From Candidatus Atribacteria bacterium (GTDB taxonomy: Bacteria; Atribacterota; JALVIU01), in the NCBI GenBank assembly GCA_027028665.1, contig JALVIU010000027.1, positions 1-6,306 on the forward strand: a stretch of DNA of 6,306 nucleotides. The letters run 5' to 3'. How positions within the stretch are numbered: the stretch's first letter is position 1; every line of letters starts with the position of its first letter. Both the position numbers and the translations under genes were made by a program. This document shows positions 793 to 5,849 of the stretch, piece by piece. The notes below the pieces were generated by a model, which saw only the letters and a list, made by a program, of their open reading frames with translations, did not search any database and had not been told where the DNA came from.

Positions 793-1932
793 GTGGAAAA
801 TTATAGAACATTTAAAAAGATAGGGATAAAGGTCTTTCCTCTTGGTTTTGGAGCTATGAGACTCCCTATTATAGGAGGGAATGAGGCAAACATAGATGAA
901 AAAGAAGCAATAAAAATGATAAGATACGGTATAGATCATGGTATAAATTATGTAGATACTGCATATCCTTATCATAAAGGAAACAGTGAAATATTAGTAG
1001 GTAAAGCACTAAAAAATGGATATAGAAATAAAACATATCTTGCCACAAAACTTCCCACATGGCTCCTTGAGACAAAAAAGGATATGGATAAATACTTTAC
1101 AGAACAACTGAAAAAATTAGATGTAGAACATATAGATTTTTATCTTATACATTCTCTTAGAAAACATACATGGGAGAGGGCTTACAAATTGGGAGTATTA
1201 GAGTGGGCAGAGAAGATGAAAGAAAAGGGATATATAAGGTTTTTGGGATTTTCCTTTCATGATGAGTTTCCAGTATTTAAAGAGATCATAGATGCCTATG
1301 ATGAGTGGGATTTTTGTCAGATCCAATATAACTATATGGATATCAATTTTCAAGCAGGAAGAAAGGGACTTAAATATGCAGCTTCAAAGGGAATATCTGT
1401 AATAGTTATGGAACCCCTAAGAGGTGGAAAGCTTGCCAATCCTCCACTTAGTGTAAAAGAGGTGTTTGACTCATACCATGTAAAGAGGACTCCTGTAGAA
1501 TGGGCACTTCTTTGGGTATGGAATCATCCTGAAGTAGCCCTTCTCCTAAGCGGCATGTCCACCATGGAACAGGTAAAACAGAATGTAGAAACTGCAAAAC
1601 ACTCAGGCATAGGAATTTTAAGCGAAGAGGAGTTAAATATAATTAAAAAGGCAAGAGAAGAGTATTTAAGACTTACACCTATTGACTGTACAAGTTGTAA
1701 TTACTGTATGCCCTGTCCTTTTGGGGTAAATATACCTGGTAATTTCGCAATATACAATAATGCAGTAAGATATAACAACAGCTTTAAGGATTTCAAGTGG
1801 GAATACGATGCACTTGGTGACGGACGGGCATCAAGCTGCACAAAGTGTGGAGAGTGTGAACCGAAGTGCCCACAAAATCTCCACATAAGAGACCTATTAG
1901 AAATGGTAAAGGATACCTTTGAATCCCTTTAG
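793..1932 (+). CDS. Aldo/keto reductase with C-terminal two-cluster ferredoxin domain
   Basis: This is a cytoplasmic NAD(P)H-type aldo/keto reductase of the COG1453-like group, in which a TIM barrel is joined to a ferredoxin-like tail; the substrate is unknown. The 379-residue product opens with the typical KIGIKVFPLGFGAMRLP. The catalytic tetrad is complete: D55 and Y60 (DTAYPY), K86 (ATKLP) and H120 (LIHS). A barrel covers about residues 1-290. The tail carries C299, C302, C305 and C308-Pro (CxxCxxCxxCP), then C349, C352, C355 and C359-Pro (CxxCxxCxxxCP), enough for two [4Fe-4S] clusters. Such proteins could pass electrons between a carbonyl/alcohol couple and a ferredoxin-like partner, but this is inference. 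GTG 793 is chosen because of the AGGGAGGTGG site before it and the good N-terminal fit to the family. It is the first gene of an operon: its end overlaps the histidine kinase gene by 14 bases. Confidence 0.93.
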   Translation: MENYRTFKKIGIKVFPLGFGAMRLPIIGGNEANIDEKEAIKMIRYGIDHGINYVDTAYPYHKGNSEILVGKALKNGYRNKTYLATKLPTWLLETKKDMDKYFTEQLKKLDVEHIDFYLIHSLRKHTWERAYKLGVLEWAEKMKEKGYIRFLGFSFHDEFPVFKEIIDAYDEWDFCQIQYNYMDINFQAGRKGLKYAASKGISVIVMEPLRGGKLANPPLSVKEVFDSYHVKRTPVEWALLWVWNHPEVALLLSGMSTMEQVKQNVETAKHSGIGILSEEELNIIKKAREEYLRLTPIDCTSCNYCMPCPFGVNIPGNFAIYNNAVRYNNSFKDFKWEYDALGDGRASSCTKCGECEPKCPQNLHIRDLLEMVKDTFESL

Positions 1933-3715
1933 TAAAGTTTCTATAAGAAAAAAATTTAATATTAAATTTTTAAATCCTTTAGTACCAGATATAGATAAGT
2001 ACAATCTTATAATAAGGTGGGGGGTGGTTTTTGCCTCAGGACTCTCATATATATTTGCAGAGACAGAGGCCCAGATTCGCATAAACCCCATAGGCTCTTT
2101 TCTTCTTCTCATTCTATATAATATTCCAGTATCTATATACATTTTTAATCGAAAACCTATAGAAAAAGGGAATCCATGGCTACTTATAGCATCTGATACC
2201 ATTGTATCCCTTGTTGTAATAGCTTTTACTGGGGGCCATCTAAGTATCTTCTTTTTTCTTCTTATACTTCCTATTATAGAGACAGTTACAGTATATAAAT
2301 GGCTTATAAGTATGACAATTATTGTAATAATAGATGCCTTACAGCTCTTTATATCTACACTAACCACCTCAGAGAATGTACATCCTCTTATTGTAATAAA
2401 TAGATTTATAGCTCTTCTAATTTTTGGTCTCCTCTTTATAATTTTTAAGGAAAGAGCACAGATAGAAGAGGAAAAACGGCGTCAGATAGAAATAGCCATG
2501 GCCCATGAAAGAAATCTAAATGAAATCTTTTTAAAGATTGGTGAAAGCAGTACCCGTCTTGAAGAGGTATTGAATATCATACTGGAAAGTGCGCAAAAAC
2601 TGTTGGATGCATCAGGTGCCATAATTCTTCTAAATGAAAACCCTTTTCTCAGAGTATCTGCCTCAAGTACAAGCAAACACTTCATTGGAGAAGAGATAAA
2701 AAAACTGAATTGCAAAAATAACAAAGACCAGATAGTGATAGTGGAAAAAGGTAGTAATGATTGGCCCGACTTTGTAAAGGAAGTTGGTATAAGACAACTA
2801 ATATGTGTAAAGCTTTCCTCTCCTTCTCAGGAAACATTAGGATGGATCGTGGTAGGAAGAGATAAGACAGAACCCTTAAGTGTTCAGCAGCTTAATCTAA
2901 TTAAATCATTTGCATTGGAGGCAGGTTTTGCAATACACAATTCACAATTATACAGGAGAGAACAGGCACATATAAAAAAGCTTGAAGAATTTGAGGAATT
3001 ACGTTCTACATTTTTCTCATCTTTAGGACATGAGCTAAAAACTCCTATTACAGTACTTAAAACCTTATCTCCTTCTCTTAAAAGCCTAAAAAATCTACCA
3101 GGAGATACACAGAAAGAGATAATAGAGATAATAAATCAAAATCTAAATAGATTAGAATCCCTTGTCCAGGAAATGCTTGAAAGTGCAAGATTGGAATCAA
3201 ATACTATACAGCTCTATACTGTGCCTATAAATATAGTATCTCGTATTGATAATGTCACCAGACTTGTAAGCCCAATAATCAAGAGGAAAAATATAAAACT
3301 AATAAAAGATATGCCCAGAGATATTCCCATGATAAATGCTGACCCAAAGAGACTGGATCAAATACTATTCAACCTCTTAAACAACGGATTAAAGTTTACT
3401 CCCCAGGGTGGAACTATCAAAATAAGCATAAAGACCTTAAACAATACTGTATTAATATGTATAGATGATACAGGACCTGGGATTTCAAAGGAGGATCAAG
3501 ACAGAATCTTTGATAAATTCTATACATCCTCTAAGAATAAGGCATTAACAGGTGTAGGTCTGGGGTTGTTTATATGTCGTGAACTTGTAAAAATGCATGG
3601 AGGGAAAATCTGGGTTGAGGATTCTAAATTGGGCGGAAGTAGGTTTTGTTTTACTATGCCCATTTATAAGGAGAGTAAAAATGGAAAAGATGACAAAAAA
3701 GATTCTGGTCATTGA
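1919..3715 (+). CDS. Membrane sensor histidine kinase (6 TM, GAF, HisKA, HATPase)
   Basis: This is an inner-membrane sensor kinase of 598 residues that would autophosphorylate on His and pass the phosphate to the regulator encoded next. About six hydrophobic helices lie near residues 31-46, 58-76, 87-103, 108-125, 128-147 and 157-176, with very short loops, so sensing is probably within the membrane. A charged coiled-coil linker (about 177-200) leads to a GAF-like domain (about 200-345). HisKA has the phospho-acceptor H371 in GHELKTP. The ATPase part shows the N box (N485-P495, key N489), G1 box DDTGPGI (516-522), F box RIFDKFY and G2 box GVGLG (545-549), all intact. No ATG is available near the N-terminus. 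TTG 1919 is chosen because AAAGGA at 1908-1913 precedes it and it lies before the first helix. It overlaps the reductase gene by 14 bases and the regulator gene by 35, indicating translational coupling. The signal is unknown; the membrane part recalls RegB/PilS-type sensors. Confidence 0.93.
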   Translation: MNPFSKVSIRKKFNIKFLNPLVPDIDKYNLIIRWGVVFASGLSYIFAETEAQIRINPIGSFLLLILYNIPVSIYIFNRKPIEKGNPWLLIASDTIVSLVVIAFTGGHLSIFFFLLILPIIETVTVYKWLISMTIIVIIDALQLFISTLTTSENVHPLIVINRFIALLIFGLLFIIFKERAQIEEEKRRQIEIAMAHERNLNEIFLKIGESSTRLEEVLNIILESAQKLLDASGAIILLNENPFLRVSASSTSKHFIGEEIKKLNCKNNKDQIVIVEKGSNDWPDFVKEVGIRQLICVKLSSPSQETLGWIVVGRDKTEPLSVQQLNLIKSFALEAGFAIHNSQLYRREQAHIKKLEEFEELRSTFFSSLGHELKTPITVLKTLSPSLKSLKNLPGDTQKEIIEIINQNLNRLESLVQEMLESARLESNTIQLYTVPINIVSRIDNVTRLVSPIIKRKNIKLIKDMPRDIPMINADPKRLDQILFNLLNNGLKFTPQGGTIKISIKTLNNTVLICIDDTGPGISKEDQDRIFDKFYTSSKNKALTGVGLGLFICRELVKMHGGKIWVEDSKLGGSRFCFTMPIYKESKNGKDDKKDSGH

Positions 3716-4394
3716 TGATGAACCAGATATTTCAAGGGCAATCAGGCTCACCATAACCATACAGGAACCAAACTGGGAAGTAGTAGAGGCCAACTCTGCA
3801 AAAGACGGATTAAAAAAGTTATTGGAAGACGAATCTTTTGATCTTGTACTTTTAGATCTTGTCATGCCAGACATGTCAGGATTTGATGTACTAAAAAAGA
3901 TCCGCTCCTTCAGTGATATTCCTGTAATTATGCTTACTGTTCGGGATGATGAGCTGGATAAAGTGCACGGTCTTGAATTAGGTGCAGATGATTATATTGT
4001 AAAACCCTTTGGTCACCTTGAACTTATGGCAAGAATCAGATCTATATTTAGAAGGGTAAGTGGTGAGGTAAAGGAGTATGAAAAACCATTCATAGTAGAT
4101 GATCTAATGATAGATTTTAATAAAAGAAAGGTTTTTGTAGATAACAAAGAGATAAGCCTTACAGCCACAGAATATAAGGTGCTGGAGATACTTGCAAGAA
4201 ATGCAGGAAGAATTGTTGAGAAAAATACACTACTCTCACGGGTATGGGGCACATATGAGGTAGATAATCCTGATTATCTAAAGATCTATATTCATAGATT
4301 AAGATCAAAGATTGAAAAAGACCCAAAAAATCCAAAATATCTACATACAGAAAGGGGCATAGGATACTGGCTTTTGGCACCTCCTAAAAAATAA
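3681..4394 (+). CDS. OmpR/PhoB-family response regulator
   Basis: This is a cytoplasmic DNA-binding regulator of 237 residues, the evident partner of the overlapping kinase. The receiver domain (about 6-125) has the acidic pair D12-D13, phospho-acceptor D59 in LLDLVMPD, T86 and K108 in VKPF, all the residues needed for phosphorylation. The C-terminal winged helix (about 135-232) contains LTATEYKVLEILARN, a recognition helix in the YLKIYIHRLRSKIE region (199-212) and a wing ending in ERGIGYWL. ATG 3681 is preceded by AAGGAG at 3668-3673 with seven bases spacing, inside the end of the kinase gene; ATG 3690 is too far from this site. Family members bind direct repeats of about 11 bp, and such an array exists about 500 bases downstream at 4901-4944, so the SPW gene is a candidate target. 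It is the last gene of the operon, ending in a terminator whose stem contains the TAA stop. It is not assignable to a named regulator from sequence alone. Confidence 0.94.
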   Translation: MEKMTKKILVIDDEPDISRAIRLTITIQEPNWEVVEANSAKDGLKKLLEDESFDLVLLDLVMPDMSGFDVLKKIRSFSDIPVIMLTVRDDELDKVHGLELGADDYIVKPFGHLELMARIRSIFRRVSGEVKEYEKPFIVDDLMIDFNKRKVFVDNKEISLTATEYKVLEILARNAGRIVEKNTLLSRVWGTYEVDNPDYLKIYIHRLRSKIEKDPKNPKYLHTERGIGYWLLAPPKK

Positions 4395-4430
4395 AGGGGC
4401 CCAAACCAGAAGGTCTGAACCCCTTTATTT
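4389..4430. terminator. Bidirectional intrinsic terminator between convergent genes
   Basis: AAATAAAGGGG (4389-4399) pairs perfectly with CCCCTTTATTT (4420-4430), an 11-bp stem whose interior also has CAGA/TCTG able to pair (4407-4410 with 4414-4417). T-rich sequence follows on the plus strand (TTTATTTATATTT). On the minus strand the mirror is TTTATTTTTT. It can therefore end both the regulator operon and the SPW gene transcript. The regulator's TAA stop (4392-4394) lies inside the stem. Confidence 0.88.
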
Positions 4431-4448: not shown

Positions 4449-4841
4449 CTATACTTCCTTTGCAACAAGTGCTGCCCATGCACCAACAACAAGTACGATA
4501 ATACCAATTACTACATCATTCCACATAGCTGATGCAAGCTTTGAATATCCAAGGGTAAATGGTGCAATAATAAGCCAGAGTCCCAGAATTGCATTTAGCC
4601 AGCTTAAACTCTTAATAAGACCTACAGAATTGGAAAGTGCTGCCCATGCACCAACTATGAGCAGTACTATACCTATTATTATAGCATCCCACATTGCATT
4701 TCCAGTTTTAGGTAAAGCTGCGGCTTTTTGAGCACCTTCTGCAGCCTTTTGTACTTTTGAATAAGAAAGAATAAATGGTGCAAGAAGCTCCCAGATACCC
4801 AGAATAGCAACTACCCAGTTTAAACTCTTTGCAGTCTTCAT
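4449..4841 (-). CDS. Small membrane protein with two SPW repeats
   Basis: A 130-residue, probably four-helix inner-membrane protein of the SPW-repeat type (Pfam PF03779, from memory), a group with no established function. It is an internal duplication. Repeat 1 (about 5-69) starts SLNWVVAILGIW and ends IVGAWAAL; repeat 2 (about 77-125) starts SLSWLNAILGLW and ends VVGAWAAL. Each copy has an LxAPFxLxYSK segment and an AMW motif between its two helices. Repeat 1 carries a 16-residue longer loop rich in Ala and Lys (about 30-47) that repeat 2 lacks. ATG 4841-4839 is preceded by a perfect AAAAGGAGGTG at 4860-4850 with eight bases spacing. The gene is monocistronic, convergent with the response regulator gene and divergent from the aldolase gene. 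Its promoter has a good -10 but no -35 and overlaps a phased repeat array, suggesting activator control. The function is unknown; an envelope or stress role is only a guess. Confidence 0.85.
   Translation of the reverse strand: MKTAKSLNWVVAILGIWELLAPFILSYSKVQKAAEGAQKAAALPKTGNAMWDAIIIGIVLLIVGAWAALSNSVGLIKSLSWLNAILGLWLIIAPFTLGYSKLASAMWNDVVIGIIVLVVGAWAALVAKEV
4467..4655. repeat. 21-bp direct repeat pair inside the SPW gene (4467-4487 and 4635-4655)
   Basis: The sequence beginning AAGTGCTGCCCATGCACCAA is identical at both sites, offset by 168 bp (56 codons). It encodes the VGAWAAL end of each SPW repeat on the minus strand. Identity at synonymous positions suggests the internal duplication is recent or kept alike by recombination, although codon preference could contribute. 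Confidence 0.85.
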
Positions 4842-4886
4842 TTTTAAAACACCTCCTTTTGGGATTTACTTCCACTTTCTGTTTTT

Positions 4887-4892
4887 ATTATA
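4887..4892 (-). promoter_or_regulatory. -10 box of the SPW gene promoter, with no recognisable -35
   Basis: A perfect TATAAT reads on the minus strand at 4892-4887, placing the start of transcription near 4880 and giving a leader of about 39 bases. Hexamers at the 16-18 base spacing (TTTTCT, CTTTTC, ACTTTT) do not resemble TTGACA, and there is no TG extension. This is typical of promoters that need an activator bound upstream. Confidence 0.65.
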
Positions 4893-4900
4893 GAGAGTTT

Positions 4901-4944
4901 TGGTTAAAAGAAAAGTAACGATAGGTTAATATTTGGTTAAAAAT
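4901..4944. promoter_or_regulatory. Phased GGTTAA array, candidate response-regulator operator
   Basis: GGTTAA occurs at 4902-4907, 4924-4929 and 4935-4940, with starts 22 and 11 bp apart. A degenerate copy (AAGTAA, 4913-4918) fills the remaining 11-bp slot, so four units lie on one face of the helix. On the SPW coding strand they read TTAACC, close to the TT(A/C/T)A(C/T)A direct repeats known for Bacillus PhoP. They cover about -21 to -64 of the SPW promoter and about -47 to -90 of the aldolase promoter. Binding by the regulator encoded at 3681-4394 is inference. Confidence 0.6.
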
Positions 4945-4975
4945 TCTAAAATAAAGGTAAAATTTTGAAATTTTA

Positions 4976-4984
4976 TGATATAAT
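4976..4984 (+). promoter_or_regulatory. Extended -10 promoter for the aldolase operon
   Basis: TGATATAAT is a perfect TGnTATAAT extended -10 element. The -35 region at the 17-base spacing (GGTAAA) is poor. Transcription would start near 4991, only four bases ahead of the AGGAGG site at 4995-5000. Confidence 0.7.
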
Positions 4985-5006
4985 TGGAAAAAACAGGAGG
5001 CATAAA

Positions 5007-5849
5007 ATGTCACTTCTCACCCTAAGAGAGATCCTCAACTTAGATAGAGGAATACCTGCCTTTGATGTCTATGACTCTAATATGTTAGAGGCTGTATTAC
5101 AAGCTGCTTTAGAACTTAACTCTCCGGTAATTATTATGGCATATGAAGGTCATATGAAAAACTTCGGCATAAACACAGTAAAGACATTTGCAAATATGAT
5201 AAAAGCAAAAGCAGAAAACCTTCCTATACCTATAACACTCCATCTCGATCACGGAAAAGATATAGATTTTATAAAGGAATGCATATATGCAGGTTTTTCA
5301 TCTGTAATGTTTGACGGCTCTATGTTGCCTTTTGAGGAAAACCTGCGTATTACAAAGGAGCTCACAACCATTGCACATTCACATTTTGTATCAATAGAGG
5401 CAGAAGTAGGAAAAGTAGGAAGTGATACAGGAGGTGTTGAGACAATTTATACATCACCTGAGGATGCCGTACGCTTTGCACAAGAGACAGGAGTGGATGC
5501 ACTTGCCATATCTGTAGGCACTACTCACGGCTTATACCTAAAAGAGGCAAAGATCAAAGTAGAGCTTGTAACCATGATAAAAGATGCACTGGAAAAAAAT
5601 GGTATTACTACAAAACTCGTCCTACATGGAGGATCGGGAACACCGACAAAGGATCTCATAGAACTTATAAAAAGGGGGATAAAAAAGGTAAATATCGGCA
5701 CAGATCTAAACAAGGCCTATCTTAAGGTACTTTCCAAAACAGATACCATATACCTGGAAGAGATATTTCCAAAGGCCATGAAAGCAGTAAAAGAGGAAGC
5801 AAAAAAGTATATAAATATCATATATTATCAAAAAGGAGGAGATGAATGA
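5007..5849 (+). CDS. Class II (zinc) fructose-bisphosphate-type aldolase
   Basis: This is a cytoplasmic aldolase expected to cleave or form fructose 1,6-bisphosphate (dihydroxyacetone phosphate plus glyceraldehyde 3-phosphate) in glycolysis or gluconeogenesis. The 280-residue product has the whole class II signature. D81 and zinc ligand H82 lie in HLDHG, SVMFDGS is at 99-105, and E133 is in EAEVG. Zinc ligand H174 is in VGTTHGLY, and zinc ligand H207 in LHGGSG also supplies phosphate-binding Gly/Ser residues. NIGTD is at 229-233. The close relatives tagatose-bisphosphate aldolase (GatY/KbaY) and IolJ share these motifs, so the substrate is not certain. ATG 5007 follows AGGAGG by six bases; an upstream in-frame TTG at 4965 lies ahead of the -10 box and is rejected. 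The stop overlaps the start of the next gene (ATGA), so the two are an operon. The promoter region is shared with the SPW gene and its repeat array. Confidence 0.9.
   Translation: MSLLTLREILNLDRGIPAFDVYDSNMLEAVLQAALELNSPVIIMAYEGHMKNFGINTVKTFANMIKAKAENLPIPITLHLDHGKDIDFIKECIYAGFSSVMFDGSMLPFEENLRITKELTTIAHSHFVSIEAEVGKVGSDTGGVETIYTSPEDAVRFAQETGVDALAISVGTTHGLYLKEAKIKVELVTMIKDALEKNGITTKLVLHGGSGTPTKDLIELIKRGIKKVNIGTDLNKAYLKVLSKTDTIYLEEIFPKAMKAVKEEAKKYINIIYYQKGGDE

Follow-up and report, generated by a model that had tools for sequence, protein, structure and literature searches.

What kind of control acts on the gene of an SPW repeat membrane protein (minus strand, 4449–4841; PF03779, 69 bits), in front of which a few hexamers recur at regular spacing in an AT-rich intergenic region, and which regulator would exert it? 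We addressed this question in a window of 6306 bp that represents an entire contig, from a source genome of 1.79 Mb in 413 contigs (90% complete), and by comparison with other members of the phylum.

A phased array in front of the SPW gene

On the plus strand of the window, an aldo/keto reductase gene is followed by those of a membrane histidine kinase (1919–3715; domain matches to GAF, HisKA and HATPase) and of an OmpR/PhoB-family response regulator (3681–4394; PF00072 and PF00486), the latter converging on SPW. Between the two convergent genes lies a hairpin (4389–4430; −19.2 kcal/mol, z −4.2) that is probably a two-way terminator. On its other side, SPW is divergent from the genes for a class II aldolase (plus strand, 5007–5849; PF01116) and a hydroxyacid dehydrogenase. 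Genome G085, which is unrelated, has an SPW gene and a class II aldolase gene of the same families lying tail to tail (L006:435-1779), and no phased arrays were found before SPW genes elsewhere.

Read on the minus strand toward SPW, the array begins with unit 1 (TTAACC, 4935–4940), the farthest from the gene, followed after the spacer aaata by unit 2 (TTAACC, 4924–4929), after tatcg by the weak unit 3 (TTACTT, 4913–4918) and after ttctt by unit 4 (TTAACC, 4902–4907), from which the spacer aaaactctc, exactly 9 bp long, leads to a −10 hexamer TATAAT (4887–4892). The three exact units, GGTTAA on the plus strand, are the sole copies of this hexamer in the window and all share one strand. The sequence-only reading had announced three exact hexamers and one degenerate copy in four 11-bp slots, upstream of an SPW promoter with a perfect TATAAT and no −35. 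All of these elements were recovered, the degenerate slot (AAGTAA on the plus strand) matching GGTTAA at only 3 of 6 bases, and an inferred transcription start near 4880 would place the units at about −22 to −60. This promoter is absent from the list of a general promoter scan, because the scan demands a −35.

The divergent aldolase gene, a possible second target, has a perfect extended −10, TGATATAAT (plus strand, 4976–4984), that begins 38 bp past the distal unit of the array and, like that of SPW, comes without a −35. The sequence-only reading had not remarked on this −10. An effect of the array on this second promoter is possible but unsupported.

Such phasing is rare. Some non-simple hexamer occupies three of four slots at 11 bp in 0.11% of the dinucleotide shuffles of the intergenic region 4842–5006 (p = 0.001), and in 0.5% of them when any period from 9 to 13 is allowed. 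The 11-mer TTTGGTTAAAA is also present in exact copies at 4899 and 4932, 33 bp apart, with the caveat that, the sequence being AT-rich, 20 of its 500 shuffles also contain repeats of at least 11 bases. A genome scan for TTAACC units at 11-bp spacing, as proposed from the sequence alone, led back to the same place: the exact pair GGTTAA-N5-GGTTAA occurs a single time in the genome, at the window array, and 443 kb of the genome held no further 11-bp hexamer array. Looser pair matches numbered 76 genome-wide, below the 129 of a reversed control, which rules out a large regulon of such pairs. Elsewhere in this genome, a P-type cation ATPase gene is preceded, on the minus strand, by TTAACT-N5-TTAACA-N10-TATAAT (L149:3160-3192); since its units number just two and its distance to the −10 is not that of the window array, this locus is not claimed as a second target.

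Comparison with pstS promoters of the phylum

No close relative was present among the genomes searched, none being nearer than the phylum, and a search of plasmid records for the orthologous region returned nothing. The comparison was made with pstS promoters rather than with orthologous SPW regions. A loose scan of phylum members for the array gave arrays less than 2 kb from OmpR-type regulator genes, and these loci turned out to be phoB-phoR-pst clusters with the array immediately before pstS, where pstS was named by PF12849 and phoB, phoR and the other pst genes by gene order and sequence. In four families (f2, f4, f5 and f6), four TTAAC-type units at 11 bp precede pstS, and a TANNNT lies exactly 9 bp past the last unit in 13 of 14 promoters, the same distance as in the window. 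This layout with its fixed gap to the −10 is thus conserved across families of one phylum. Unit 3 also deviates in the pst promoters of f2 (TTTATA), as does the weak unit 3 of the window. From their gene context we infer that these arrays are Pho boxes; we know of no Pho-box footprint in this phylum.

A matrix built only from these 14 pst promoters, none of them from the family of the window, gave the window a score of 18.8, the best in the sample, the next best in its own genome being 11.0 (611 kb, 1.2 million positions). A pst-derived pattern allowing up to two mismatches likewise matched the genome at the window only. With at most one mismatch and the window excluded, 14 of the 17 matches in the phylum lie just upstream of pstS, although 11 of these 14 had served in the design of the pattern and three are new (G016, G022 and G036). 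In G060, a member of another phylum, three near-identical four-unit arrays (GTTACAAAAATTTAACA...) occur at C31:1861, C82:40263 and C83:45857, one of them upstream of pstS, and the four-unit layout may thus reach beyond the phylum.

The array is a genuine control site. A functionless, fortuitous arrangement of AT-rich hexamers might be argued from the weakness of unit 3 and from the lack of a second copy in the genome, but it is extremely improbable given the p value of 0.001 for the array and the full promoter matrix, whose window score was attained by none of 20,000 shuffles, whether spacer columns were included or left out.

As to the kind of site, the window combines direct repeats at 11 bp, units that take the place of a −35 with constant spacing to the −10, and a sequence resembling the Pho boxes of relatives. 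The suggestion that an OmpR/PhoB-family operator faces SPW in the position of an activated Pho-type promoter holds, the pstS promoters of relatives, with the same 11-bp and 9-bp layout, being the decisive evidence together with the matrix score, and we consider it very probable that the site is a Pho-type operator. One could also envisage a binder from outside the OmpR/PhoB family, for instance a repressor of DeoR type acting on the aldolase operon, since some DeoR-type repressors (IolR) use direct-repeat operators and the genome contains four HTH_DeoR genes. However, the array faces SPW with the 9-bp gap of pst promoters, the regions upstream of the four DeoR genes contain neither GGTTAA nor TTAACC, and 29 homologues of the aldolase gene have no upstream phased array, which makes this alternative very unlikely.

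The local regulator and its rivals

Two full-length OmpR-type regulators were found in the genome, in addition to a 664-aa frame with one match to PF00486. Judged from sequence, the local kinase and regulator appear the likeliest partners of the array, since this regulator is one of only two and is encoded 0.5 kb from the sole site; we estimate at roughly 0.4% the chance that such a site would fall within about 1 kb of an OmpR-type regulator gene. The second regulator, on contig C185, could in principle use the array as the only other full-length protein of its type found, but it is CusR-like (51% identical to a CusR-like protein of a relative) and encoded elsewhere with its own kinase beside it, which leaves it a very unlikely candidate.

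The nearby two-component system had been called PhoB-type, and only part of this description stood: an OmpR/PhoB-family pair does lie about 0.5 kb away, but its regulator is KdpE-like and its kinase does not have the domain layout of phylum PhoR. In the tree, the window regulator joins, on a long branch, E. coli KdpE and the KdpE-like proteins of the phylum (98/95), apart from pst-linked PhoB, and an AU test marginally disfavours its grouping with PhoB (p 0.056). RegX3 and KdpE are among its nearest solved relatives. It stays below the cut-offs of the PhoB model (179 of 296 bits) and of the KdpE (179 of 325 bits) and YycF (180 of 340 bits) equivalogs. With the KdpE grouping and the PhoB score, we rejected its identification as PhoB proper. 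The alignment of the kinase to KdpD covers the kinase portion and some of the GAF region, and that to phylum PhoR covers the kinase portion only; the protein has a KdpD-like GAF-kinase core instead of the Cache-like, HAMP and PAS domains of phylum PhoR, and DUF4118, the KdpD membrane domain, is absent from it, leaving GAF, HisKA and HATPase only.

Three observations count against the local regulator as binder. Its recognition helix reads DYLKIYIHRLR, against RTIDVHIKNLR in the f2 PhoB proteins, despite the similarity of the boxes, no GGTTAA precedes its own operon, and the TTAAC box is absent from the KdpE-like loci of relatives. At one such locus of a relative (L257:6997-7050), TTTATCAATAT direct repeats with an 11-bp period stand upstream of a KdpD-like kinase gene and are possibly the KdpE box of that clade.

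The same type of promoter could instead be bound by a true PhoB, encoded with phoR and pst in the 10% that the assembly lacks, in which case SPW would be a phosphate-starvation gene. This is consistent with the match of the window box to the pst promoters of relatives, with PF12849 proteins in 29 of 31 good genomes among the relatives searched, and with the adjacency of phoB, phoR and pst in relatives, where a single gap could conceal them all. By contrast, neither PstS nor a second, PhoB-like regulator was found in the 90%-complete assembly, PhoU appeared only below cut-off (a 224-aa frame on contig C400), the Pst gene search in 611 kb of the genome returned only generic ABC-type matches, no further Pho-type box was found in the assembly, and the site lies close to the window regulator. 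On balance we regard a concealed PhoB as rather unlikely. Given the 29 of 31 genomes, we estimate an assembly gap to be about as likely as a true loss of Pst, and this is the main uncertainty on the identity of the binder. A tentative scenario is that the lineage lost Pst and PhoB and that the KdpE-like regulator recruited a Pho-type box to control SPW alone, uncoupled from phosphate uptake; if Pst was truly lost, the window would offer a case of an operator type outlasting its usual regulon.

Our preferred reading, to which we give a probability of about 0.6, is that positions 4887–4940 form an activator-dependent Pho-box promoter of SPW bound by the local KdpE-like regulator; the array, its rarity, its pstS-like layout and the kinship of the regulator gene are observed, and binding, activation, signal and the identity of the regulator are inferred. 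The GAF-containing membrane kinase would phosphorylate the regulator encoded 0.5 kb away, and two head-to-tail dimers of the phosphorylated protein would occupy one face of the DNA over units 1–4, the four 11-bp half-sites (unit 3 weak) replacing the missing −35. By analogy with PHO boxes, KdpE sites and the tandem binding of M. tuberculosis PhoP, unit 4, at 9 bp from the perfect −10, would then place the last monomer beside this hexamer, where it could substitute for −35 contacts and recruit RNA polymerase, so that SPW would be transcribed upon phosphorylation of the regulator. The locus offers a candidate pair of regulator and target, open to testing, in which the target encodes an SPW protein; an open-access literature search on the SPW repeat found no paper.

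Relation to known direct-repeat operators

The locus appears to be a regulatory site of an established type found in an uncommon context, the Pho-type promoter being well supported and the predicted regulator probable. Among known sites of this architecture, the WalR/YycF box (TGTWAH-N5-TGTWAH; PMC5405149) differs from GGTTAA-N5-GGTTAA solely at position 1 of the units. However, the window regulator scored below the YycF equivalog cut-off, on which ground it was rejected as WalR/YycF, and SPW is not a cell-wall gene. E. coli KdpE binds TTTATA-N5-TTTACA and requires R193, R200 and T215 (PMC3264566), which align with K, R and T of the window regulator. The window shares with that site 6-bp units starting with TT and 5-bp spacers, and its regulator groups with KdpE, but its core is TTAAC instead of TTTA, its units are four instead of two, and no kdp genes occur in the window. 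For M. tuberculosis PhoP, binding to three or four consecutive units is better than to two (PMC4832192). In the PHO box of pst promoters, bound by PhoB in E. coli and by PhoP in B. subtilis, direct-repeat units at 11 bp stand in place of the −35 (PMC4415409), as they do in the window. The window differs from these promoters in that its array precedes SPW rather than pstS, no Pst genes were found and the adjacent regulator is KdpE-like, whereas it shares with the pstS promoters of its own phylum the TTAAC core, the four units and the 9 bp to the −10.
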